Assembly (NCBI RefSeq): GCF_040744945.1 | Contig: NZ_CP160453.1 | Location: 7,626,001 to 7,690,000 of the forward strand | DNA length: 64,000 nt | Direction: 5' to 3' | DNA from: Saccharothrix sp. HUAS TT1 | GTDB lineage: Bacteria; Actinomycetota; Actinomycetes; Mycobacteriales; Pseudonocardiaceae | Part shown: one piece after another, positions 47,985 to 58,831 of the stretch | How the letters are laid out: each line of letters opens with the position of its first letter | How positions within the stretch are numbered: the stretch's first letter is position 1 | Position numbers and translations under genes: made by a program | Notes under the pieces: generated by a model | What the model was told of the DNA's origin: nothing | The model's database searches: none | The model's input: the letters and a program-made list of their open reading frames with translations, nothing else

Positions 47985-48509
47985 CTAGCCCGCCCGCTCG
48001 ACCTCCGCCCGCAGCCGGCCGAACACCTCGGCCAGGTCGGCCAGCCGGTAGTGCGCGTTCAGCCCGCTCGGGTTCGGCAGCACCCACAGCCGGGCCGACG
48101 CGATCAGCTCCTCCTGCGGGCCGACCTTCGCGCCCTTGCGCCCGAACGCGGCCCGGTACGCCGTCACGCCGACGACCGCGACCACCTTCGGCCGGTGCTC
48201 GCGGGCCAGCTCGGTCAGCCGCGCGCCACCCGCCCGCAGCTCCTCGGCGGTCAGCTCGTCGGCCTTCGCCGTCGGTCGGGCGACCAGGTTCGTGATGCCC
48301 AGCCCGTAGCCCGGCAGCTCGTCCTGCTCGTCGGGGCGCAGCAGCCGCGGCGTGAAGCCGGACAGGTGCAGCGCCGGCCAGAACCGGTTGCCCGGCCGGG
48401 CGAAGTGCTGCCCCTTGGCGGCCGACATCAGACCGGGGTTGATGCCGCAGAACAACACCTCCAGCCCCGGCCCGAGCACGTCCGGCAGGGCGCCGTCCGC
48501 CGCGCTCAC
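47985..48509 (-). CDS. mug: G/U mismatch-specific uracil-DNA glycosylase
   Basis: A 174-residue Mug/TDG-type DNA repair glycosylase that removes uracil or related bases from mismatches. The active-site strand is VLFCGINPGLMSAAKGQHFA, with Asn as catalytic candidate, and the minor-groove wedge motif is LPNPSGLNAHY. Length matches the family. GTG 48509 overlaps the stop of the upstream nucleotidase gene by four bases (GTGA), so the two are probably co-translated. It is convergent with the DUF742 gene, 24 bases apart. Confidence 0.93.
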   Translation of the reverse strand: MSAADGALPDVLGPGLEVLFCGINPGLMSAAKGQHFARPGNRFWPALHLSGFTPRLLRPDEQDELPGYGLGITNLVARPTAKADELTAEELRAGGARLTELAREHRPKVVAVVGVTAYRAAFGRKGAKVGPQEELIASARLWVLPNPSGLNAHYRLADLAEVFGRLRAEVERAG

Positions 48510-50305
48510 CCGACCACCACCGGGGTGCCGCCGACGACCAGCCGCCAGTCCACCCGGTGCAGCGCCGCCGGGTCGACCTCGCCCCGCTCCCGCACCCAGT
48601 CGATGATCAGCTGCCGGATCTCCAGCTGCCGGTTGTGCAGCACCGGAGCGGTGGCGACGTGCGGGAAGTTGCCGCCGCCCGACTGCCGGTAGTTGTTGAC
48701 CGCCACCGCGAACGCCTGGTCCGCCGCCACCGGCGCGCCGTCGTAGGACAGGCCGGTGATCCGCTGCCCGACCGGCCGGGCCAGGTCGACGTCGTAGGTC
48801 AGCGGCGCGTCCAGGCCGGCCGCCACGTCGTAGAGGTAGTCGGGCGTGCCGCCCGCGTTGGTCAGCGCGTCCGGCCGGTGCGGGCCCGGCGTGGTCACCG
48901 CCTGGTAGTACGCCGCCGAGCGCTCCAGGTAGTCCTTGAGCTGCGCCCCGGTGAGGCGGACGCCGAACAGGGTGTTGTCGTAGACGTAGAGCCCGGCCAC
49001 GTCCCGCACCGACACGTCGCCCGCCGGGATCGCGGCGGCCTTGTTGAACGGCGACGCCAGCGACAGCACGGGCAGCGCCGCGCCCAGGTCGGCCTTCAGC
49101 GCCTCGCCCTGCACCCGGTTGACGAAGTCGAGCACGGCGGTGTCCTCGTAGCGGGCGGTCGCCGCCGACATCGCCGCCTTCGACGTGCCGATCCTGGAGT
49201 TGACGTAGGCGACCACCTTGTCGTGGTCGTCGCGCAGCCGGCGGACGATGACCGGGTCCTCGGGCACGGTGGTGGTGTCGAGCACCTGCGAGCGGGACGC
49301 CTCGTTGCGCCAGCCCCGCCCCGGCGTCCAGACCAGGTCGAACTCCATCAGGCTGAGCCGCTTGCCCCAGAACAGCGGCTCGGTCAGCAGCACCCGCGCG
49401 CCGGTGGCCTTGTTCGTGACGAACCGCTGCGCGATCTCGGTGTGCGCGTGGCCGACCAGGATCGCGTCGATGCCCGGCACCTCCTCGGCGACCAGGGCCG
49501 AGCAGTTCTCCGGGAACGGCAGCAGGTCGCCCAGCGACGACGACAGGTCCGCGCCGGAGTGCGCCGCCACGACGACCAGGTCCGCGCCCGCCTCGCGCAC
49601 CTTCGGCACCCACTCGCGGGCCTGCTCCAGCACGCCGGGGAACGTCATCCGGCCCTCGACGTGCGCCTTGTCCCAGATCGCGATGCCCGGGTTGGTCAGG
49701 CCGAGGACGCCGACCCGCAGCGGCGCGGCCCCGGTCCGCCACACGGTCTTGATCACGTACGGGCGGAACGCGGGCTCGCCGGTGGCCGCGTCGACCGCGT
49801 TCGCCGCGAGCAGCGGGAAGTCCAGCTGCTTCTCGAACGCGCGCAGCAGGGGGATGCCGTAGTTGAACTCGTGGTTGCCGAGCGCGGCGGCGTCGTAGCC
49901 GAGCTCGTTCATCGCGGTGGCCATCGGGTGCACGCGGCGGCGGCCGATGGGCTCGACCTTGGCGTAGTAGTACGCCAGCGGGGTGCCCTGGATGGTGTCG
50001 CCCGCGTCGATGAGCAGCGTCCGGTGCGCTCCTCGTTCCTGCCGGACGGCCTTGACCAGTGTGGACAGCTTCGCCAGGCCGACGTCGTTGTGCGCGGCGT
50101 CGTCGAACTCGCGGTCGGCGAAGTAGTCCCAGTTGAACACGTTGCCGTGCAGGTCGGTGGTGCCGAGGACGGTGAGCGTGAACCGCCGTCCCCCAGTCCG
50201 GTCTTCCGGGGCGGCCCGCGCCACCGTGTGGAACCCGGCGACGGCGAGCACGCCCGCGGCGCCGCCCGCGAGCAGGGCGCGGCGGTGCAGAGGAGATCCG
50301 GTCAT
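48506..50305 (-). CDS. Tat-exported 5'-nucleotidase/metallophosphatase
   Basis: A 599-residue bifunctional UDP-sugar hydrolase/5'-nucleotidase family protein. It starts MTGSPLHRRALLAGGAAG with twin Arg 8-9, so Tat export is likely. Metal-site motifs are TTDLHGNVFNWDYF, DAGDTIQGTPLAYYY, LGNHEFNYG and VGHAHTE. The C-terminal substrate domain has YLERSAAYYQAV and VAVNNYRQSGGGNF. It would act outside the membrane on nucleotides or cyclic nucleotides. No strong ribosome site precedes ATG 50305; ATG 50323 is an alternative. It is followed by mug. Confidence 0.93.
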   Translation of the reverse strand: MTGSPLHRRALLAGGAAGVLAVAGFHTVARAAPEDRTGGRRFTLTVLGTTDLHGNVFNWDYFADREFDDAAHNDVGLAKLSTLVKAVRQERGAHRTLLIDAGDTIQGTPLAYYYAKVEPIGRRRVHPMATAMNELGYDAAALGNHEFNYGIPLLRAFEKQLDFPLLAANAVDAATGEPAFRPYVIKTVWRTGAAPLRVGVLGLTNPGIAIWDKAHVEGRMTFPGVLEQAREWVPKVREAGADLVVVAAHSGADLSSSLGDLLPFPENCSALVAEEVPGIDAILVGHAHTEIAQRFVTNKATGARVLLTEPLFWGKRLSLMEFDLVWTPGRGWRNEASRSQVLDTTTVPEDPVIVRRLRDDHDKVVAYVNSRIGTSKAAMSAATARYEDTAVLDFVNRVQGEALKADLGAALPVLSLASPFNKAAAIPAGDVSVRDVAGLYVYDNTLFGVRLTGAQLKDYLERSAAYYQAVTTPGPHRPDALTNAGGTPDYLYDVAAGLDAPLTYDVDLARPVGQRITGLSYDGAPVAADQAFAVAVNNYRQSGGGNFPHVATAPVLHNRQLEIRQLIIDWVRERGEVDPAALHRVDWRLVVGGTPVVVG

Positions 50306-50333
50306 GCGGCAGACCGTAACCATTGACGGTTGA

Positions 50334-50996
50334 CTAGTCCGCTGCCTTTTCGGCGGTGTCGTCGCCCTTCGCACGTCGTCGCAGGCCGACGAAGACCGTG
50401 ACGGCAGCCAGCGCCGCCACGGCCGCGATCAGGACCCACACCCACAGCGGCAGGCCGCCGTCGTCGCCGGAAGAGGAGGAGGACGTGGCCGCCGGGGTGG
50501 AAGTCCCGGTGGTCGGCTCGGTGATGGTGGCCACCGACGGGGTGGTGGTCGCGGTGGCCGTCGCGGTCTCCGCCGACGTCACGGCCGGTGGCGCGCCGGG
50601 CGTGGTGACGGCCGGCGCCTGCTGCCGGGGCGGCGCGGTCAGGGTGAACGCGTACGTGCCGTCCACGAAGTCGCCGTCCAGCGACTCGACCTGCCAGGCC
50701 ACCTGGTACTGCCCGGCGGGCGAGCCGGTCTCCAGCAGCGCGACGGTCAGCGTCGCGCCGCGGGCGGTGACCTCCCCCAGCGGCCAGGCGCTGCCGTCGG
50801 GGGCCAGGACGGTGACCGTGGCGCTCTCGGCGGGCACCGGTTCGGTGAACGTCAGCGTGAGCTGCGTCGGCCGCTGCGGCAGCGACGCGCCGCTCGCCGG
50901 GTCGCTCGACACCAGCTCGGTGTGGGCGGACGCCGGGGCCGCCGCCCCGAGCAGGGCCAGGGTCGCCAGCAGCGCCGAGAGCGCCAATCGGGTCAT
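50334..50996 (-). CDS. CopC-domain copper-resistance-like protein
   Basis: A 220-residue exported protein. The signal peptide ends ASAHTEL, leaving His25 at the mature N-terminus as in CopC copper ligands. The CopC beta-sandwich follows (SDPASGASLPQRPTQLTLTF, YQVAWQVESLDGDFVDGTYA), then a Thr/Ala/Pro-rich linker and a C-terminal membrane helix (LWVWVLIAAVAALAAVTVFV) with a basic tail. No CopD gene adjoins it. It starts 10 bases after the stop of the DUF5666-like gene, with a short palindrome between them, so both may share a transcript. Confidence 0.9.
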   Translation of the reverse strand: MTRLALSALLATLALLGAAAPASAHTELVSSDPASGASLPQRPTQLTLTFTEPVPAESATVTVLAPDGSAWPLGEVTARGATLTVALLETGSPAGQYQVAWQVESLDGDFVDGTYAFTLTAPPRQQAPAVTTPGAPPAVTSAETATATATTTPSVATITEPTTGTSTPAATSSSSSGDDGGLPLWVWVLIAAVAALAAVTVFVGLRRRAKGDDTAEKAAD

Positions 50997-50997
50997 A

Positions 50998-51013
50998 CCG
51001 GTAGTTCTACCGG
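50998..51013. repeat. CCGGTAG/CTACCGG palindrome before the CopC gene
   Basis: CCGGTAG (50998-51004) and CTACCGG (51007-51013) flank two bases. The right arm overlaps the stop codon of the upstream gene, and the left arm ends one base before the CopC start. It may be a small mRNA hairpin affecting coupling, or an operator; there is no further evidence. Confidence 0.4.
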
Positions 51014-51561
51014 GTCGGAGGGGTCCCCTGCCGGCCGCCGCCCGCCCGCTGCGGGGGTCCGCCGCGCTGCACGTCGCCCTCCGTGATGCTGTCCGCGGTG
51101 GGCTCGTCGCCGGTCCCGGAGGAGGCGATGACGCTGACGACGTCGCCGACGGCGATGTCGTCCAGGTCGCCCTGGCCGCCGTTCACCCGCGTGTCGTCGT
51201 CGATCCGGTAGGTCCCGCTGAACCCGTCGGTGCTCTTCACCGTGATGGACGAGTCGCCGACCTCGGTGACCTCGCCGTTCTGGAACTCGCCGTGCTGCGC
51301 GTCGCCGAACGGCCCACCCATGATCACGAGACCGCCGCCGGGACCGCCGCGCACGCCGTAGCCGCCGGGTCCGCCCATCGCGCCCCGGGCCGCCTCGGGT
51401 TTGCTCGCCGCGTAGATGACCCCGCCGCCGACGGCGGCGATGCCCACGGCGATGGCGACCGCGGCGAGGGCCTTGCGGCCGTTCCAGCCGGGTCCCGCGG
51501 CGGCGGCCCGCGGCGGCGGTTCCTCGCCCCACGTCGGTTGCTGCTCGGTTTCGGTAGTCAT
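51007..51561 (-). CDS. Membrane-anchored Gly-rich DUF5666-like protein
   Basis: A 184-residue protein. A cytoplasmic Pro-rich start is followed by one membrane helix (ALAAVAIAVGIAAVGGGVIY, about 34-55). Next comes a Gly-rich external stretch (GGPGGYGVRGGPGGG) and a beta domain resembling DUF5666 (GEVTEVGDSSITVKSTDGF, then DLDDIAVGDVVSVIASSG). ATG 51561 is divergent from the response regulator gene at 51710. Four 11-bp phased repeats precede it, so it is probably a target of that regulator. The molecular function is unknown. Confidence 0.82.
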   Translation of the reverse strand: MTTETEQQPTWGEEPPPRAAAAGPGWNGRKALAAVAIAVGIAAVGGGVIYAASKPEAARGAMGGPGGYGVRGGPGGGLVIMGGPFGDAQHGEFQNGEVTEVGDSSITVKSTDGFSGTYRIDDDTRVNGGQGDLDDIAVGDVVSVIASSGTGDEPTADSITEGDVQRGGPPQRAGGGRQGTPPTR

Positions 51562-51583
51562 GGCGACCAACGTCCCGGTGGAG

Positions 51584-51622
51584 CCTGTGCGTGGGCTGTG
51601 CGGTCCTTGGGCGGCGGCTGTG
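51584..51622 (-). promoter_or_regulatory. Four 11-bp phased repeats before the DUF5666-like gene
   Basis: Read on the minus strand, CACAGC (51622-51617), CCCAAG (51611-51606), CACAGC (51600-51595) and CACAGG (51589-51584) recur exactly every 11 bases. The last ends 22 bases before the ATG at 51561. One-turn direct repeats are the usual layout of OmpR/PhoP-family operators. Confidence 0.7.
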
Positions 51623-51649
51623 CGTGCGCCACGAGCGGTGGCGGGCGTT

Positions 51650-51688
51650 CACAGGTGGTACACAGGATCGGCACAGGTCCGGCTCAAG
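51650..51688 (+). promoter_or_regulatory. Four 11-bp phased repeats before the response regulator gene
   Basis: CACAGG at 51650-51655, 51661-51666 and 51672-51677, then CTCAAG at 51683-51688, are exactly 11 bases apart. The array ends 21 bases before the ATG at 51710, which suggests autoregulation. It mirrors the array on the other strand of the same intergenic region. Confidence 0.75.
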
Positions 51689-51709
51689 GGCCGGGATCAC
51701 GATGGGAGC

Positions 51710-52450
51710 ATGCGCCCAGTGTCCGCTTCGGGGTCCTCCCCTGAGCTCCGCCGCCCGGACGGCAGTCCCGTGCGTGTCCTGGTGGTCGACGACGAGTCCA
51801 CCTTGGCCGAGCTGATGTCCATGGCGTTGCGGATGGAGCGGTGGGAGGTGCGCACCGCGCTGGACGGCACGTCCGCCGTGCGCACCGCGCGCGAGTTCCA
51901 GCCGGACGTGGTCGTGCTGGACGTGATGCTGCCCGACTTCGACGGGCTGGAGGTGCTGCGCCGGCTGCGCGTCGACCTGCCGGCGCTGCCCGTGCTGTTC
52001 CTGACCGCGAAGGACGCGGTGGAGGACCGGATCGCCGGGCTCACCGCGGGCGGCGACGACTACGTGACCAAGCCGTTCAGCCTGGAAGAGGTGGTGCTGC
52101 GGCTGCGCGGCCTGCTGCGCCGCACCGGCGTGACCGAGGCGCGTGCGGGCGCCGAGCTGGTGGTCGGCGACCTCGTGCTGGACGAGGAGACGCGCGAGGT
52201 GCGCCGAGGCGGCGCCCCGGTCGACCTCACCGCGACCGAGTTCGAGCTGCTGCGGTACCTGATGCGCAACCCCCGGCGGGTGCTGTCGAAGGCGCAGATC
52301 CTTGACCGGGTGTGGAACTACGACTTCGGCGGCCAGGCCAACATCGTCGAGCTGTACATCTCCTACCTGCGCAAGAAGATCGACGCGGGCCGGGCGCCGA
52401 TGATCCACACGATGCGGGGCGCCGGGTATGTCCTCAAGCCGTCGACCTGA
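51710..52450 (+). CDS. OmpR-family response regulator
   Basis: A 246-residue two-component regulator. The receiver has VRVLVVDDESTLAELM, phospho-acceptor Asp71 in VVVLDVMLPDFDG and Lys121 in YVTKPF. The C-terminal winged helix has VDLTATEFELLRYLMRNPRR, VWNYDFGGQANIVELYISYL and MIHTMRGAGYVLKP. ATG 51710 has GGGAG only one base away; GTG 51719 gives better spacing and may be the true start. It overlaps the sensor-kinase start by 23 bases. The phased repeats upstream are the proposed binding sites. Confidence 0.94.
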   Translation: MRPVSASGSSPELRRPDGSPVRVLVVDDESTLAELMSMALRMERWEVRTALDGTSAVRTAREFQPDVVVLDVMLPDFDGLEVLRRLRVDLPALPVLFLTAKDAVEDRIAGLTAGGDDYVTKPFSLEEVVLRLRGLLRRTGVTEARAGAELVVGDLVLDEETREVRRGGAPVDLTATEFELLRYLMRNPRRVLSKAQILDRVWNYDFGGQANIVELYISYLRKKIDAGRAPMIHTMRGAGYVLKPST

Positions 52451-53900
52451 CCGGCGGGCGTCGCGCGCCCGGAGCCGGCCGCTGCGGACCAAGCTGGTGG
52501 CGGCCCAGGTCGTGCTGCTGGCGGTGGTGTGCGCCATCATCGGCGTGACGACCGGGTTCGCGCTGCGGGACTCGCTGGTCGAGCAGGTGGACGGGAAGCT
52601 GTGGGAGGCGGCGGCCACGATCGGCCGCGACGTGGAGCGGGCGCCGCACACCCTGCCCGACGCGGCGCGGCCCGGCCCGCTGGGCGACGCGGGCTTCCCG
52701 CCCGGGACGCTGGCGCTGATCCGGCGCGGCGACGGCGTGGTGGACACCCAGCGGCAGCCGGTGGGCTTCGGCGACCGGGAGGGGCTGTCGGTCGACGTCA
52801 CCAGGCAGATGGAGGGCGTGCCGCCCGACGCCCGCGCCCGCACGGCGGCGCTGGAGGGGCTGGGCGACCACCGGGTCCTCTCGCTGGTCACCCGGAGCGG
52901 GGCCGTGGTGACCGTCGGGATGCCGCTGGCCGACGTGAACAGCACGGTGTGGCGGATGGGGTGGGTGCTGGCCGGGGTGGCCCTGGCCGGGGTGATCGCG
53001 GTGAGCCTGGCGGGCGCGCTGATCGTGCGCCGCACGCTGCGCCCGCTGGAGCGGGTGGCCGCGACCGCGAGCCGGGTCGCCGAGCTGCCGCTGCACCAGG
53101 GCGAGGTGGCGCTGGCCGAGCGGGTGCCCGACGAGTACGCCGACCCCGGCACCGAGGTGGGCCAGGTCGGCCTGGCGCTGAACCGGATGCTCGGGCACGT
53201 CGGCAGCGCCCTGGAGGCCAGGCACGCCAGCGAGACCCGGGTCCGGCAGTTCGTCGCCGACGCCAGCCACGAGCTGCGCACCCCGCTGGCCGCCATCCGC
53301 GGCTACGCCGAGCTGACCCGGCGCACGTCCGACGAGGTGCCGCCGCGGATCGGGCACGCGATGCGGCGGGTGGAGTCCGAGGCGGTGCGGATGACGTCGC
53401 TGGTGGAGGACCTGCTGCTGCTGGCCCGGCTGGACGCGGGCCGGCCGCTGGCGCGCGAGCCGGTCGACCTGTCGCGGCTGGTGGTCGACACCGTCAGCGA
53501 CGCCCGGATCGCCGGGCCGGACCACGAGTGGCGGCTGGCGCTGCCGCCGGACGCGGTCCAGGTGACCGGGGACGCGCACAAGCTGCACCAGGTGCTGGCG
53601 AACCTGCTGTCGAACGCGCGCACGCACACGCCGCCGGGCACGACCGTCACCACGTCGCTGTCCACTGTGGACCGGGCGGTGGAGGTGGCGGTGACCGACG
53701 ACGGTCCGGGCATCCCGCCCGAGTCGCAGCGCGAGGTGTTCGAGCGGTTCAGCCGGGGCGACACGTCGCGGTCGCGGGCGGCCGGGAGCACCGGGCTCGG
53801 GCTGTCGATCGTGGCCGCCGTCGTGGCCTCGCACCACGGGTCCGTGCGGCTGGACAGCGAGCCGGGCCGGACCGCGTTCACCGTCCGCCTGCCGCGCTGA
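52428..53900 (+). CDS. Sensor histidine kinase
   Basis: A 490-residue partner of the preceding regulator. Membrane helices at about 21-46 and 177-200 enclose an external sensor domain of about 130 residues with no recognised fold. HAMP is about 201-270. The HisKA box is FVADASHELRTPLAAIRGYA with His281. The ATPase domain has the N box HQVLANLLSNARTHTP, G1 VTDDGPGIPPES and G2 AGSTGLGLSIVAAV. ATG 52428 overlaps the regulator gene by 23 bases. What is sensed is unknown; its adjacency to the glycosylation genes suggests an envelope signal. Confidence 0.94.
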   Translation: MSSSRRPDRRASRARSRPLRTKLVAAQVVLLAVVCAIIGVTTGFALRDSLVEQVDGKLWEAAATIGRDVERAPHTLPDAARPGPLGDAGFPPGTLALIRRGDGVVDTQRQPVGFGDREGLSVDVTRQMEGVPPDARARTAALEGLGDHRVLSLVTRSGAVVTVGMPLADVNSTVWRMGWVLAGVALAGVIAVSLAGALIVRRTLRPLERVAATASRVAELPLHQGEVALAERVPDEYADPGTEVGQVGLALNRMLGHVGSALEARHASETRVRQFVADASHELRTPLAAIRGYAELTRRTSDEVPPRIGHAMRRVESEAVRMTSLVEDLLLLARLDAGRPLAREPVDLSRLVVDTVSDARIAGPDHEWRLALPPDAVQVTGDAHKLHQVLANLLSNARTHTPPGTTVTTSLSTVDRAVEVAVTDDGPGIPPESQREVFERFSRGDTSRSRAAGSTGLGLSIVAAVVASHHGSVRLDSEPGRTAFTVRLPR

Positions 53901-53935
53901 TCGCGCACGGCGGGTTCAATCGCGCACAGCGGGCT

Positions 53936-53963
53936 CACAGGCGGGGCACAAGGGCCGCCCAGG
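53936..53963 (+). promoter_or_regulatory. Three 11-bp phased repeats before the glycosylation cassette
   Basis: CACAGG (53936-53941), CACAAG (53947-53952) and CCCAGG (53958-53963) are spaced exactly 11 bases. The array ends 22 bases before the ATG at 53986. This is the same motif, phase and distance as at the response regulator and DUF5666-like genes. Confidence 0.7.
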
Positions 53964-53985
53964 GTCCGCCGACAGGCTCGACCCC

Positions 53986-55773
53986 ATGCGAGCGCGACTA
54001 CCACTGCTGGTGCTGTTGGCCGGGACGGCGGTGCTCTACCTGTGGCGCCTGGGTGACTCGGGGTGGGCCAACGCCTACTACTCCGCCGCCGCCCAGGCCG
54101 GCGCCGAGAGCTGGCACGCGTGGTTCTTCGGCGCGACCGACCCGGCGGGCTCGATCACGGTCGACAAGACACCGGCGGCGACCTGGGTGACGGGGCTGTC
54201 GGCCCGGCTGTTCGGGGTCAACGCCTGGAGCATCCTGGTACCGCAGGCGCTCATGGGCGTGGCGAGCGTGTGGCTCCTCCACGCCACCGTGCGCCGGACG
54301 GCCGGTGAGGCCGCCGGCCTGATCGCGGGCGCGGTGCTGGCGCTGACGCCGGTCGCGGTGCTGATGTTCCGGTTCAACAACCCGGACGCGCTGATGGTGC
54401 TGCTGCTCGTGGCGGGCGCGTACTGCGTGGTCCGGGCCACCGAGGGGGCGTCGGCGCGGTGGTTGGCGCTGGCCGGCGCGGCGGTGGGTTTCGCGTTCCT
54501 GGCCAAAATGCTCCAAGCGTTCCTGGTGCTGCCCGCGTTCGGGCTGACGTACCTGGTGTTCGCGCGGGCGCCGTTGCTGCGCAAGGCGCGGCACCTGGCC
54601 GTCGCGCTGGGCGCGGTCGTCGTCGCCGGCGGCTGGTGGGTGCTGGCGGTGGAGCTGACGCCCGCCGGCTCGCGGCCCCACGTCGGCGGCTCGCAGTCCG
54701 ACAGCGTGCTGGAGCTGGCGCTGGGCTACAACGGGCTCGGCAGGTTGACCGGTGACGAGGTCGGCAGCGTCGGAGGCGGGGGCGGCTGGGGCACGGCCGG
54801 GTGGAGCAGGCTGCTCGGGGACGAGATGGGCGGTCAGATCGCCTGGTTGCTGCCGACCGCGCTGGTGCTGCTGGTCGCCGGCTGGTGGGCCGGGCGGACC
54901 GCGGAACGGGCCGGTCTCGCGCTGTGGGGCGGCTGGCTGGTCGTCACCGCCGCGGTGTTCAGCTTCATGAACGGCATCATCCACGCGTACTACACGGTGG
55001 CGCTGGCCCCGGCGATCGGGGCGTTGATCGGGATCGGCGCGGTCGCCCTGTGGCGCGAGCGGCACGAGCCCGCCGCGGCGGCGGCGCTGTCCGGCGCGCT
55101 GGCCGTGACCGCGCTCCAGTGCTACCTGCTGCTGCTGGACTGGTCCACCCCGCTGGCGGTGGTCGTGCTGGTCCTCGGCCTGGTCGGCGCGGTGGGCCTG
55201 TTCCTCGCGTCGACCGCGCCCGCCGCCGTGGTCGTGCCGGTCGCCGTGGTCGGCGCCCTGCTCGGACCGGGAGCCTACTCCGTCGCCACGGCCGCGACAC
55301 CGCACTCCGGCGCGATCCCCAGCGCCGGTCCGGCGCAGGACCGGTCCGGTGGCGGACTGGTCCTGGTGGGACCGGGCGGCGCCACGCGGAACGCCGGTGG
55401 CGGCATGGGCGGTCTGCTCAACGCTCCAACACCGGGCGATGAACTGGTGGCGCTGCTGCGGGACAGCGAGGGCTTCACCTGGGCGGCGGCGACCGTCGGG
55501 TCGAACAACGCGGCCGGGTACCAGCTCGGCAGCGGCGAGCCGGTGATGGCCGTCGGCGGCTTCAACGGCACCGATCCCGCGCCCACGCTGGAGGAGTTCC
55601 AGGAGCTGGTCCGAGGCGGGCGGATCCACTACTTCCTCGGCGGAGCCGGGGTGCGCGCCGAGACCGGCAGCGACGCGGCGCGGCGGATCGCCGAGTGGGT
55701 GGCCGACGCGTTCAGCGCGACGGAGGTCGACGGCGTCACCGTCCACGACCTCACAGCGGACGCACAGCGATGA
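53986..55773 (+). CDS. GT-C glycosyltransferase (GT39/YkcB-like), copy 1
   Basis: A 595-residue polytopic protein like ArnT/PMT and Bacillus YkcB, which transfer a sugar from a polyprenyl-phosphate donor on the outer face of the membrane. The first external loop is WANAYYSAAAQAGAESWHAW, then SITVDKTPAATWVTGLSARL. PVAVLMFRFNNPDALMVLLL and FLAKMLQAFLVLPAF are shared with the second copy. A Gly-rich loop (GSVGGGGGWGTAG) is at about 262-275. The C-terminal about 150 residues, after TAATPHSGAIPSAGP, form an external domain (FTWAAATVGSNNAAGYQLGS). It is the first gene of a three-gene operon with four-base overlaps. Confidence 0.9.
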   Translation: MRARLPLLVLLAGTAVLYLWRLGDSGWANAYYSAAAQAGAESWHAWFFGATDPAGSITVDKTPAATWVTGLSARLFGVNAWSILVPQALMGVASVWLLHATVRRTAGEAAGLIAGAVLALTPVAVLMFRFNNPDALMVLLLVAGAYCVVRATEGASARWLALAGAAVGFAFLAKMLQAFLVLPAFGLTYLVFARAPLLRKARHLAVALGAVVVAGGWWVLAVELTPAGSRPHVGGSQSDSVLELALGYNGLGRLTGDEVGSVGGGGGWGTAGWSRLLGDEMGGQIAWLLPTALVLLVAGWWAGRTAERAGLALWGGWLVVTAAVFSFMNGIIHAYYTVALAPAIGALIGIGAVALWRERHEPAAAAALSGALAVTALQCYLLLLDWSTPLAVVVLVLGLVGAVGLFLASTAPAAVVVPVAVVGALLGPGAYSVATAATPHSGAIPSAGPAQDRSGGGLVLVGPGGATRNAGGGMGGLLNAPTPGDELVALLRDSEGFTWAAATVGSNNAAGYQLGSGEPVMAVGGFNGTDPAPTLEEFQELVRGGRIHYFLGGAGVRAETGSDAARRIAEWVADAFSATEVDGVTVHDLTADAQR

Positions 55774-57014
55774 CACACGAACCGCCCAGCGACGCGCCCG
55801 AGGGTGGCGTCATGACCTTCGCGACGCTCACGACGACCACCGTGCTCGACGTGGTGGTGCCGGTGCACAACGAGGAGCGCGACCTCGCGCCCTGCGTGCG
55901 CGAGCTGCACGCCGACCTCAGGCGGACGTTCCCCCACCCGTTCCGGATCACCATCGCGAACAACGCGAGCACCGACGGGACGCGCGCCGTCGCCGACGCG
56001 CTGACCCGCGAGCTGCCCGGCGTCGTCGCGGTGCACCTGGCCGAGAAGGGGCGCGGTCGGGCGCTGAAGGAGGTGTGGTCGGCGTCGGACGCCGCCGTGC
56101 TGGCGTACATGGACGTCGACCTGTCCACCGACCTGGCCGCCCTCGCGCCGCTGGTGGCGTCGTTGACCTCCGGGCACTCGGACCTGGCGATCGGCAGCCG
56201 GCTGGCGCGCGGCGCGCGGGTGGTGCGCGGACCCAAGCGCGAGTTCGTCTCCCGCTGCTACAACCTGATCCTGCGCGGCGCGCTGTCGACCCGGTTCACC
56301 GACGCGCAGTGCGGGTTCAAGGCGATCCGCGCCGACGTCGCCCGGCGGCTGCTGCCGCACGTCGAGGACACCGGCTGGTTCTTCGACACCGAGCTGCTGG
56401 TGCTCGCCGAACGGGCGGGCGCGCGCATCCACGAGGTGCCGGTGGACTGGGTGGACGACCCGGACAGCCGGGTGGACCTCGTCCCGACCGCCGTGGCCGA
56501 CCTCAAGGGCGTCGCCCGGGTGGCGCGCGGCCTGGTGACCGGGCGCATCCCGATCGGCGACCTGCGCGCCCAGCTGGGGAGGGAGCCGCTGGAGCCGCGG
56601 ACGCCGGGCGTGCCCGCCGGGCTGTTCCGGCAGCTGGTCCGGTTCGGCGCGGTCGGCGCGGTCAGCACGCTCGCCTACCTGCTGCTGTTCGTGCTGCTGC
56701 GCGACGGCCTCGGCGCGCAGGGCGCGAACCTGGTGGCGCTGCTGGTCACCGCCGTCGCCAACACCGCGGCCAACCGCCGGTTCACGTTCGGCGTGCGCGG
56801 TCGGCGCGGCGCCGGGCGGCACCAGTTCGAGGGGCTGCTCGTGTTCGGCCTCGGCCTCGGGCTGACCAGCGGCTCGCTGGCCCTGCTGCACCTGGTCGCC
56901 GCGCCCGGCGGTCCGGCCGAGCTGGCCGCCGTCGTCGGGGCCAACCTGCTCGCCACCGTGCTGCGGTTCCTGCTGCTGCGCAACTGGGTGTTCCGGCCCC
57001 GCACCAACCGATGA
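55770..57014 (+). CDS. GT2-GtrA fusion (polyprenyl-phosphate sugar synthase/flippase)
   Basis: A 414-residue fusion. Residues about 25-255 are a DPM1/CsbB-like GT2 domain: DVVVPVHNEERDLAPCVREL, ANNASTDGTRAVADALTREL, the acid motif YMDVDLSTDLAALAPLV and DAQCGFKAIRADVARRLLPH. Residues about 285-410 are a four-helix GtrA domain (RQLVRFGAVGAVSTLAYLLL, NTAANRRFTFGVRGR). The GT2 part should make a polyprenyl-phosphate sugar and GtrA should flip it. ATG 55770 overlaps the preceding stop (ATGA), and its own stop overlaps the next ATG. It sits between two GT-C genes that would use the flipped donor. Confidence 0.93.
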   Translation: MTHEPPSDAPEGGVMTFATLTTTTVLDVVVPVHNEERDLAPCVRELHADLRRTFPHPFRITIANNASTDGTRAVADALTRELPGVVAVHLAEKGRGRALKEVWSASDAAVLAYMDVDLSTDLAALAPLVASLTSGHSDLAIGSRLARGARVVRGPKREFVSRCYNLILRGALSTRFTDAQCGFKAIRADVARRLLPHVEDTGWFFDTELLVLAERAGARIHEVPVDWVDDPDSRVDLVPTAVADLKGVARVARGLVTGRIPIGDLRAQLGREPLEPRTPGVPAGLFRQLVRFGAVGAVSTLAYLLLFVLLRDGLGAQGANLVALLVTAVANTAANRRFTFGVRGRRGAGRHQFEGLLVFGLGLGLTSGSLALLHLVAAPGGPAELAAVVGANLLATVLRFLLLRNWVFRPRTNR

Positions 57015-58831
57015 CCGACTCGACCCCGGGGACACCTTCCATGATCACCATGACAGCGCCCGAGACCGCGCACACCGCGCCGCGGTCGGGCCGGAACTGG
57101 ACCACGCCCGCGCTCGTCGTGCTGCTGGCCGGGACCGCGTTGCTCTACCTGTGGGACATCACCGCGTCCGGCTGGGGCAACAGCTACTACGCGGCGGCCA
57201 CCCAGGCGGGCTCGCAGAGCTGGGTCGCGTGGCTGTTCGGCGGGTCCGACGCCGGTGGCGCGATCACCGTCGACAAGCCGCCCGCCGCGCTGTGGGTGAG
57301 CGGGTTGTTCGCGCGGGTCTTCGGGTTCTCCAGCTGGACCGCGCTCGCGCCGCAGGCCGTCGAGGGGGTGCTGGCCGTCTGGCTGCTGCACGCCACGGTG
57401 AAGCGCACGTCCGGCCCGGTGGCCGGGTTGATGGCCGGCGCGGCCCTCGCCGTGACGCCGGTCGCCGTGCTGGTGTTCCGGTTCAACCTGCCCGACGCGC
57501 TGCTGGTGCTGCTGATGGTGGCGGGCGCGTACTGCACCGTGCGGGCGTTGGAGAAGGCGTCCGGCTGGTGGCTGGCGCTGGCGGGCGTGGCGATCGGGTT
57601 CGCCTTCCTGGCCAAGATGGGCCAGGCGTTCCTGGTGCTGCCCGCGTTCACCGCGGTCTACCTGCTGGCCGCGCCGACGTCGCTCGGCAGGCGGTTGCTG
57701 CACCTGCTCGGCGCGGGGCTGGCGGTGGCGGTGTCCGCCGGGTGGTTCGTCGCGCTGGTCGAGCTGTGGCCGACCGGGTCGCGGCCCTACATCGGCGGGT
57801 CGGCGAACGACTCGCTGTGGGAGCTGGCGATCGGCTACAACGGCCTCGGCCGGATCTTCGGCGGCGGCGGCGGTGGTGACGGCGGGGGTGGCGGCAACCT
57901 CGGGTTCGGCGGCGAGACCGGCATCGGGCGGCTGTTCGGGGCGAGCATGGGCGGCGAGGTCTCCTGGCTGCTGCCCGCCGCGCTGGTCGGGCTGGTGGCC
58001 GGGCTGTGGTTCACCCGACGGCTGCCGCGCACCGACCGCACCCGCGCGGCCCTGGTCATGTGGGGTCTCTGGGTGCTGGGCAACGGGGTCGTGTTCAGCT
58101 TCATGAGCGGCATCACGCACCCGTACTACACGGTCGCTGTCGCGCCGGGCGTCGCCGCGCTCGTCGCCATCGCGGGCCGTGAGCTGTGGCGGGGTCGCGG
58201 TCACCTGCCGGTGCGGGTGGCGCTCGCGGCGGTGGTCGCCGCCGCCGGGTTCTGGGGGTTCGCGCTGCTCCAGCGGTTCGGCGAGTGGCTGCCCGCGCTG
58301 CGCTGGGCGGTGGCGGTGCTGACCGTGCTGGTGGCGACGGCGATCGTGGTGGGCGTGCGCCGGGTGGCCGCGCTTGCGCTGGTCACGTCGGTGTTGTCGA
58401 CGGCGGCGTTCGGCGTGGCCACCGCCGCCACCCCGCACTCCGGTTCGATCCCGATGTCCGGGCCCGCCTCGTACGCGGGCGGGGGCGGCGTGGGCGGTGG
58501 CCGGGTGGGGACGACGTCGGACGAACTGGTCGACCTGCTCAGGGGCACGACGTCGACGTGGGCGGCGGCGACGGTGAGCGCGCAGGGCGCGGCCGAGCTG
58601 TCCCTGGACTCCGGCAAGGCCGTGATCGGCATCGGCGGCTGGAGCGGCGGCGACCCCGCGCCGACGTTGGACGAGTTCCGGCAGTACGTCGCGGACGGTC
58701 GGATCGGCTACTTCGTCACCGGTGGGACGGGCGGTGGCGGGATGCGCGGTGGCGACGAGATCGGCGAGTGGGTCGCGGCGAACCACGAGGCCGTGACGAT
58801 CGGCGGGGTGACCGTCTACGAGCTCGGCTGA
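57011..58831 (+). CDS. GT-C glycosyltransferase (GT39/YkcB-like), copy 2
   Basis: A 606-residue paralogue of the protein encoded at 53986. Matching blocks are WGNSYYAAATQAGSQSWVAW, AITVDKPPAALWVSGLFARV, PVAVLVFRFNLPDALLVLLM, FLAKMGQAFLVLPAFTAVYL and the C-terminal TAATPHSGSIPMSGP with an external domain (TWAAATVSAQGAAELSLDSG). It has a longer N-terminal tail and a Gly/Asp-rich loop (GGGGGGDGGGGGN). ATG 57011 overlaps the GT2-GtrA stop. The two copies probably arose by duplication and may glycosylate different acceptors. The last bases overlap the convergent GDSL gene by 16. Confidence 0.9.
   Translation: MTDSTPGTPSMITMTAPETAHTAPRSGRNWTTPALVVLLAGTALLYLWDITASGWGNSYYAAATQAGSQSWVAWLFGGSDAGGAITVDKPPAALWVSGLFARVFGFSSWTALAPQAVEGVLAVWLLHATVKRTSGPVAGLMAGAALAVTPVAVLVFRFNLPDALLVLLMVAGAYCTVRALEKASGWWLALAGVAIGFAFLAKMGQAFLVLPAFTAVYLLAAPTSLGRRLLHLLGAGLAVAVSAGWFVALVELWPTGSRPYIGGSANDSLWELAIGYNGLGRIFGGGGGGDGGGGGNLGFGGETGIGRLFGASMGGEVSWLLPAALVGLVAGLWFTRRLPRTDRTRAALVMWGLWVLGNGVVFSFMSGITHPYYTVAVAPGVAALVAIAGRELWRGRGHLPVRVALAAVVAAAGFWGFALLQRFGEWLPALRWAVAVLTVLVATAIVVGVRRVAALALVTSVLSTAAFGVATAATPHSGSIPMSGPASYAGGGGVGGGRVGTTSDELVDLLRGTTSTWAAATVSAQGAAELSLDSGKAVIGIGGWSGGDPAPTLDEFRQYVADGRIGYFVTGGTGGGGMRGGDEIGEWVAANHEAVTIGGVTVYELG

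Follow-up and report, generated by a model that had tools for sequence, protein, structure and literature searches.

The closest solved relative of the regulator studied here is PhoP of Mycobacterium tuberculosis, whose box, TCACAGC-N4-TCACAGC, has been described as two 7-bp direct repeats with a 4-bp spacer; its cooperative tandem binding was reported to extend to tetramers when proper repeats are present, and Tyr217 and Tyr220 of the protein touch the first C of the half-site (PMC4832192). In Bacillus subtilis, ykcBC has been placed in the regulons of YclJ and YrkP (PMC5836110, PMC10128005), and one review lists the YkcBC flippase as unknown (PMC8035078). For actinobacteria, the leaderless signal was described as a TAnnnT placed some 12 bp before the start codon (PMC3160421). 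The present analysis concerns a stretch of 64,000 nucleotides from Saccharothrix sp. HUAS TT1 (positions 7626001-7690000 of the 8.7 Mb genome; hereafter the window), in which the genes of a PhoP-like response regulator (RR) and a sensor histidine kinase lie between a gene for a DUF5666-like membrane protein and a glycosyltransferase cassette. Four arrays of CACAG-type repeats, each with four units in exact 11-bp phase, stand upstream of these genes. In all likelihood they are operators of the adjacent regulator, which, acting at leaderless promoters, would switch on its own gene and those of the kinase, the membrane protein and a transmembrane glycosylation system.

The array of the RR gene (51710..52450, +) occupies 51650..51688 on the plus strand, with units at 51650, 51661, 51672 and 51683, and that of the divergent DUF5666-like gene (51007..51561, -) occupies 51584..51622 on the minus strand (units 51622, 51611, 51600 and 51589). 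The array of GTC1, the first GT-C glycosyltransferase gene (53986..55773, +), lies at 53925..53963 (+). These three arrays were present where the original prediction had placed them, and the gap of 21-22 bp that it gave between array and start codon was right, but the array before GTC1 comprises four units (53925, 53936, 53947 and 53958) and not three copies, and the total of three missed a fourth array at 55752..55790 (+; units 55752, 55763, 55774 and 55785). The latter overlaps the end of GTC1 and ends 21 bp before ATG 55812 of the GT2-GtrA gene (55812..57014, +). Since the geometry of the array fits this codon and the upstream ATG 55770 falls inside the operator array itself, 55812 rather than 55770 is probably the true start. 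In all four arrays the same two positions of the fifth 11-bp step are A and T (xAnnnT), forming a -10-like element at offset 48, i.e., CACGAT at 51698..51703 (+) for RR, 12 bp before its ATG, CAGGCT at 53973..53978 (+) for GTC1, GAGGGT at 55800..55805 (+) for GT2, and GACGTT at 51569..51574 (-) for the DUF5666-like gene. The distance from the first C of the array to the ATG is 60, 61, 60 and 61 bp, respectively.

The phase is specific to 11 bp. The hexamer C[ACT]CA[AG][GC] formed six runs of three and three runs of four in the window at lag 11 and none at lags 8-10 and 12-14; 30 Markov-resampled windows contained no run of three at that lag of 11. A composite model of four units plus the -10, trained with the window and L009-L011 left out, gave the four arrays scores of 47.9, 44.3, 37.1 and 25.5, compared with at most 8.0 at the other lags between 8 and 14 and at most 20.2 in 120 Markov strands. 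When the repeats alone were scored over three units, the arrays other than that of the DUF5666-like gene reached 33.0, 25.5 and 19.1, all above the best value of 15.3 obtained off lag (lag 9).

Lag 11 was also the highest in relatives. These were taken from GTC1-related loci, being the best 80 of 550 confirmed ones from at least 597 matched stretches. At lag 11, the best three-unit TCACAG score averaged 14.26 out of a possible 18 in 43 RR upstreams, the window included, whereas lags 7-10 and 12-15 gave means of 9.98-11.65. The corresponding values for 43 GTC1 upstreams were 13.02 and 9.84-11.21. The repeats-only scoring was passed by 34 of the 43 RR and 31 of the 43 GTC1 upstreams, and among these arrays, picked on repeats alone and therefore independently of the -10, xAnnnT was found at offset 48 in all 31 for GTC1 and at offset 48 (24) or 47 (10) in all 34 for RR. 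When the composite model was run over the window and the 80 loci, 186 hits scored 16 or more (a few of them one array recounted a unit further on), whereas in 162 strand scans of reversed sequence the score never exceeded 18.6 (99th percentile, 13.0). By downstream gene these hits comprised GT2 (47), GTC genes (45), RR (39), the DUF gene (16) and the kinase (14, in 10 loci, all Amycolatopsis, in which the kinase has its own array); the remaining 25, including the window's own four, had no gene assigned by the script. A start codon was present at 59-61 in 150 of the 159 hits scoring at least 22. In an alignment of 55 promoters A50 and T54 were invariant, partly through the selection of rows. 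The same geometry recurs in relatives from several actinobacterial families.

The arrays also follow the regulator from genome to genome. Where a local regulator (at least 50% identity, a limit that admits four PhoP orthologs and L035) and a kinase were both present, a plus-strand array scoring at least 19 was found in 46 of 48 loci, compared with 10 of 22 loci with neither (Fisher 4e-6); all 10 kinase-only loci had one. In 60 genomes of the family, its own included, profile R1 (E <=0.01) matched in all 27 genomes that have a window-clade regulator, which is full in 26 of them and a fragment in one, and in 2 of 33 without it (p 4.6e-15), or in 26 of 27 vs 1 of 33 when paralog-adjacent hits were set aside. 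At the level of single promoters, 23 of 26 RR orthologs of the family, including that of the window, have an array. In six Amycolatopsis loci (L019, L020, L021, L031, L062 and L075) the cassette keeps a kinase without the regulator. These are the six examined out of 10 loci of this kind, and in every one of their genomes a regulator was found on a different contig, accompanied by another kinase and an array of its own; it is the sole match at E <=1e-90 in each of the six. The cassettes have kept their arrays, so control should be exerted in trans.

Of the 88 R1 hits, 51 are no more than 20 kb away from the regulator and 37 are remote from it. Among 26 of the remote hits, 15 stood before a GT2, GT-C, GtrA or cassette kinase gene (one a shortened GT2) as identified by Pfam or plain resemblance, 3 before genes of secreted dioxygenase type (identified by Pfam in one case and by resemblance in two), 4 at paralog loci, 1 before an HtrA-like gene, 1 before an unknown gene, and 2 had no clear gene. 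Some of the genes behind remote hits (e.g., L210, L211 and L160) start further than 61 bp away. In its own genome, no further strong operator was listed, the R1 matches outside the window (listed up to E 1) all having E >=0.11, and a large regulon of strong sites was not found there: 8 of 18 pattern hits fell in the window and the reversed-pattern control gave 15.

Several of the remote sites deserve separate mention. A stand-alone GtrA gene, L164:1059-1490 (-), has its own array with the ATG at offset 60, far from the regulator. Secreted dioxygenases lie behind arrays in two genera (L123 and L166 with Dioxygenase_C in Pfam, L122 and L160 by resemblance), the site of L166 being weak (E 0.11). 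HtrA-like trypsin-PDZ proteases in L212 and L177 have weak arrays with the ATG at offset 60 and are weak as targets. In L208 the array stands before the remnant of a shortened GT2, behind which comes a GT-C reading frame, and in L125, L126 and L129 perfect three-unit arrays, kept in two genomes of the same genus, have no clear gene behind them.

The regulator itself has an OmpR/PhoB-family receiver and a Trans_reg_C winged helix (Pfam, 97.9 and 93.4 bits, above the cut-offs), and among solved structures M. tuberculosis PhoP is the closest to it (2e-79, PDB search). Of the DNA-contacting residues of PhoP (N212, V213, E215, S216, Y217 and Y220), N, E and both Y are identical, while V is replaced by I and S by L; the recognition helix N-[IV]-V-E-L-Y-x-S-Y is kept in all rows of at least 69% identity. 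The TCACAGC-like direct repeats stand out at lag 11 among the lags tested, as in the PhoP box. However, the regulator was rejected as an ortholog of PhoP. In a tree of 91 regulators, 75 window-type rows, with Saccharothrix as the nearest relatives, formed one group (support 96/98). A separate group (100/100) was made up of the Rhodococcus and Williamsia PhoP orthologs, which stand for M. tuberculosis PhoP in this midpoint-rooted tree with a weak order of the deeper forks. The window RR scored 269 bits to PhoP, vs 421 for the Williamsia ortholog. By its sequence it belongs to a PhoP-like subfamily apart from the PhoP of the M. tuberculosis type. A mycobacterial relative (L022) also scored 269 bits. 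By score another paralog group (L118, 292 bits) is slightly closer to PhoP, yet arrays are lacking in four of its members, L115-L118.

The mechanism that we propose starts with the kinase, which would phosphorylate the regulator, and the regulator would then bind head to tail on the four 11-bp units, probably as two tandem dimers per array, like M. tuberculosis PhoP on TCACAGC-N4-TCACAGC. The -10 is weak. Its first T (TAnnnT) was present in only 1 of 159 promoters, and a -35 with at least 4 of 6 matches was found in 6 of 159, whereas random sequence gives about 10%. The -10 lies 9 bp downstream of the end of the final 7-bp half-site, and in 150 promoters AnnnT begins 11-13 bp before the start codon. 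A -35 that is absent or poorer than random and a -10 that mostly lacks its first T suit activation by a bound regulator that replaces the -35 and recruits RNA polymerase, and transcription would start at or beside the start codon, i.e., be leaderless. The targets in its own genome would be the regulator-kinase pair (autoactivation), GTC1, GT2-GtrA with GTC2, and the divergent DUF5666-like gene, the product of which may feed back on the kinase, although this is a guess.

It could also be that the regulator represses from the arrays. If transcription starts at the ATG, unit 4 would cover about -27 to -22 and so reach the spacer between the -35 and -10 regions. We regard this as unlikely, since promoters so poor in -35 and -10 signals leave little to repress. 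Moreover, a repeat next to the -10 with the same spacing is the arrangement of PhoB-type class II activation. A less probable possibility still is that the true binder is another OmpR-family regulator, e.g., the 58%-identical paralog G000:C1:1050085, or that the sites are shared. The paralog is likewise PhoP-like (244 bits to M. tuberculosis PhoP) and its own locus (L007, G000:C1:1049038-1052262) carries [GA]ACAG arrays in the same 11-bp phase. However, these arrays differ at the first base of the half-site, and the helix of the paralog, seen in one genus, has V and H in place of Tyr217 and Tyr220, two of the three residues that contact this base in PhoP; besides, R1 hits track the window-clade regulator even when those adjacent to the paralog are set aside. 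Loci of this paralog PhoP-like kind (L007, L137, L138, L203 and L207) have [GA]ACAG or mixed CACAG/GACAG arrays in 11-bp phase, and those of L203 and L207 precede a gene for a ferric-reductase-like membrane oxidoreductase (Pfam).

That the repeats arose by chance or composition, or serve another role such as DNA curvature, has a negligible probability, although the array of the DUF5666-like gene alone is weak enough to suggest it, with a three-unit score of 12.7 below the best off-lag value. Chance and composition are ruled against by the lag-11 excess in relatives and by the composite scores, to which neither shuffled nor off-lag scans gave anything comparable, and the register is fixed across several actinobacterial families. 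Activation by the adjacent PhoP-like regulator accordingly remains the preferred explanation, and a number of observations weigh against it. The array of the DUF5666-like gene, with a degenerate second unit and an R1 E-value of 0.12, stands out only when all four units and the -10 are counted. The counts over 159 promoters use a score that includes the -10, so that the register is partly built in, and R1 was built from 55 promoters, three of them from the window itself. In six Lentzea loci just two units of the RR promoter are good; 9 of 43 RR and 12 of 43 GTC1 upstreams fall below the array threshold, six of the latter being mycobacteria in which GTC1 lies close behind the kinase. Three family orthologs (L093, L094 and L105) lack a promoter array, the 10 loci mentioned above have arrays with neither regulator nor kinase nearby, and the co-occurrence across genomes is partly trivial, as the regulator's own promoter bears an array. 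Nevertheless, phase, register and start-codon distance are conserved, the arrays co-occur with the regulator genome-wide and unlinked copies keep the operator; these features support, at the level of sequence, the suggestion that operator-like arrays for the neighbouring OmpR/PhoP-type regulator stand before the sugar-transfer genes, the DUF5666-like gene and the regulator's own gene. Since many actinobacteria share this arrangement, it is very probably a real and widespread control circuit for decorating the cell surface.

The three-gene sugar-transfer operon of the original prediction could be retained only in part. Arrays are present at the cassette, but one operon under one array was rejected, since a separate array stands before GT2 and the GTC2 gene that follows it. 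The set of GT2, GtrA and GT-C is complete among the window proteins (Pfam hits above the cut-offs). GTC1 and GTC2 (57011..58831, +; start from sequence) each have PMT_2 and YkcB_C domains, and the GT2-GtrA gene encodes a fusion of a putative polyprenyl-phosphate sugar synthase and a flippase-like domain. The GT2 part is distantly related to dolichol-phosphate mannose synthase (2.7e-9, PDB search), and for GTC1 no solved relative was found by sequence at E 0.001. GT2 would charge polyprenyl phosphate with a sugar, the GtrA part would flip the sugar carrier, and the two GT-C enzymes are predicted to transfer the sugar to an envelope acceptor. The kinase (52428..53900, +) has HAMP, HisKA and HATPase_c domains (Pfam). 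The DUF5666-like protein reached 21.9 bits in Pfam DUF5666, below the cut-off of 27. Its structure model (mean pLDDT 60.5, with blocks from about residue 91 to 160 at 82-92) has one predicted helix, a Gly-rich linker and an OB-like beta domain; Foldseek gave no match with E <=0.001, and the fold can be described only as an OB-like beta domain. Downstream of this gene, a gene for a CopC-domain protein and a 5'-nucleotidase-like gene lie at 48506-50996 (-) of the window.

M. tuberculosis PhoP controls a broad regulon, whereas the strong operators here are confined to one locus; the half-site, the 11-bp repeat and the architecture of receiver and winged helix are the same in both (PDB 3r0j, 5ed4). 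The PhoP orthologs of Rhodococcus and Williamsia (L056, L061, L074 and L086) have a GT2-GT-C cassette a few kb downstream of them, and phased CACAG arrays were found at the regulator promoter in 4 of 4 of these loci and at GT2 in 3 of 4 (scores 18-27; none was called in L074). It is conceivable, though we consider it rather doubtful, that the actinobacterial PhoP family arose as a dedicated switch of envelope glycosylation with a rigid promoter module (four 11-bp units, a -10 and a leaderless start). The window clade would then have kept this role, the broad virulence regulon that PhoP has in M. tuberculosis would have been gained later, and the sister clade of the L007 type would have changed two base-contacting helix residues together with the first base of the half-site. 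The link to PhoP offers a testable view of what the ancestors of that virulence regulator controlled. More directly, a two-component system of several actinobacterial families is assigned a predicted set of targets together with its operator and promoter architecture, and is tied to a surface glycosylation system. Because the operator is so regular, members of the regulon can be read from sequence, and the readable regulon already gives the stand-alone GtrA and the secreted dioxygenases in relatives.

In Salmonella and Escherichia coli, PhoP-PmrA controls arnT, which is also a PhoP-type control of a GT-C transferase, with LPS as the target. In view of the parts already described, the claim of the original prediction that no description of such a circuit was known is too strong, as the half-site is that of the M. 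tuberculosis PhoP box and a YkcB/YkcC-type pair is described as under two-component control in B. subtilis. The YrkP and YclJ regulons, as described, also include a YkcB-type GT-C and a GT2; these regulators are from Bacillota and are likened here by description, not by sequence or operator. In Clostridioides difficile, the two-component system HexRK is reported to adjoin and control hexSDF, a three-gene envelope glycolipid operon, but its enzymes differ, being the synthase HexS, the deacetylase HexD and the MprF-like flippase HexF (PMC10128005). Some further candidates were set aside. The available part of the report on CrsRK of Actinosynnema gives neither neighbourhood nor motif, and CrsRK was not identified with the window system (PMC12623338). 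As far as their accessible parts go, MSMEG_0244/0246 is a PrrAB relative and another system (PMC7516205), the Actinoplanes gsf cluster has different genes (PMC13390465), and PMC11019849 and PMC9019756 deal with PhoP of the phosphate system and GTTCAC-type boxes. The actinobacterial circuit was not found described among the titles and abstract beginnings in short or capped literature listings, a coverage outside which most subscription journals lie.

Multi-component transmembrane glycosylation systems are described with the same GT-A enzyme, GtrA flippase and GT-C transferase, whereas here GT2 and GtrA are fused and two GT-C enzymes are present (PMC8035078). Similarly, the leaderless promoters described for actinobacteria have AnnnT about 12 bp before the start codon, as is the case here, but they differ in the first T, so rare in the present promoters, and in the array of activator type directly upstream of the element (PMC3160421). 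PhoP-type direct repeats, transmembrane glycosylation systems and the control of such genes by a regulator, as in B. subtilis, are therefore known parts. What is probably new is their combination in a widespread and very rigid module of four repeats, probably leaderless, which ties a PhoP-like subfamily to envelope glycosylation.

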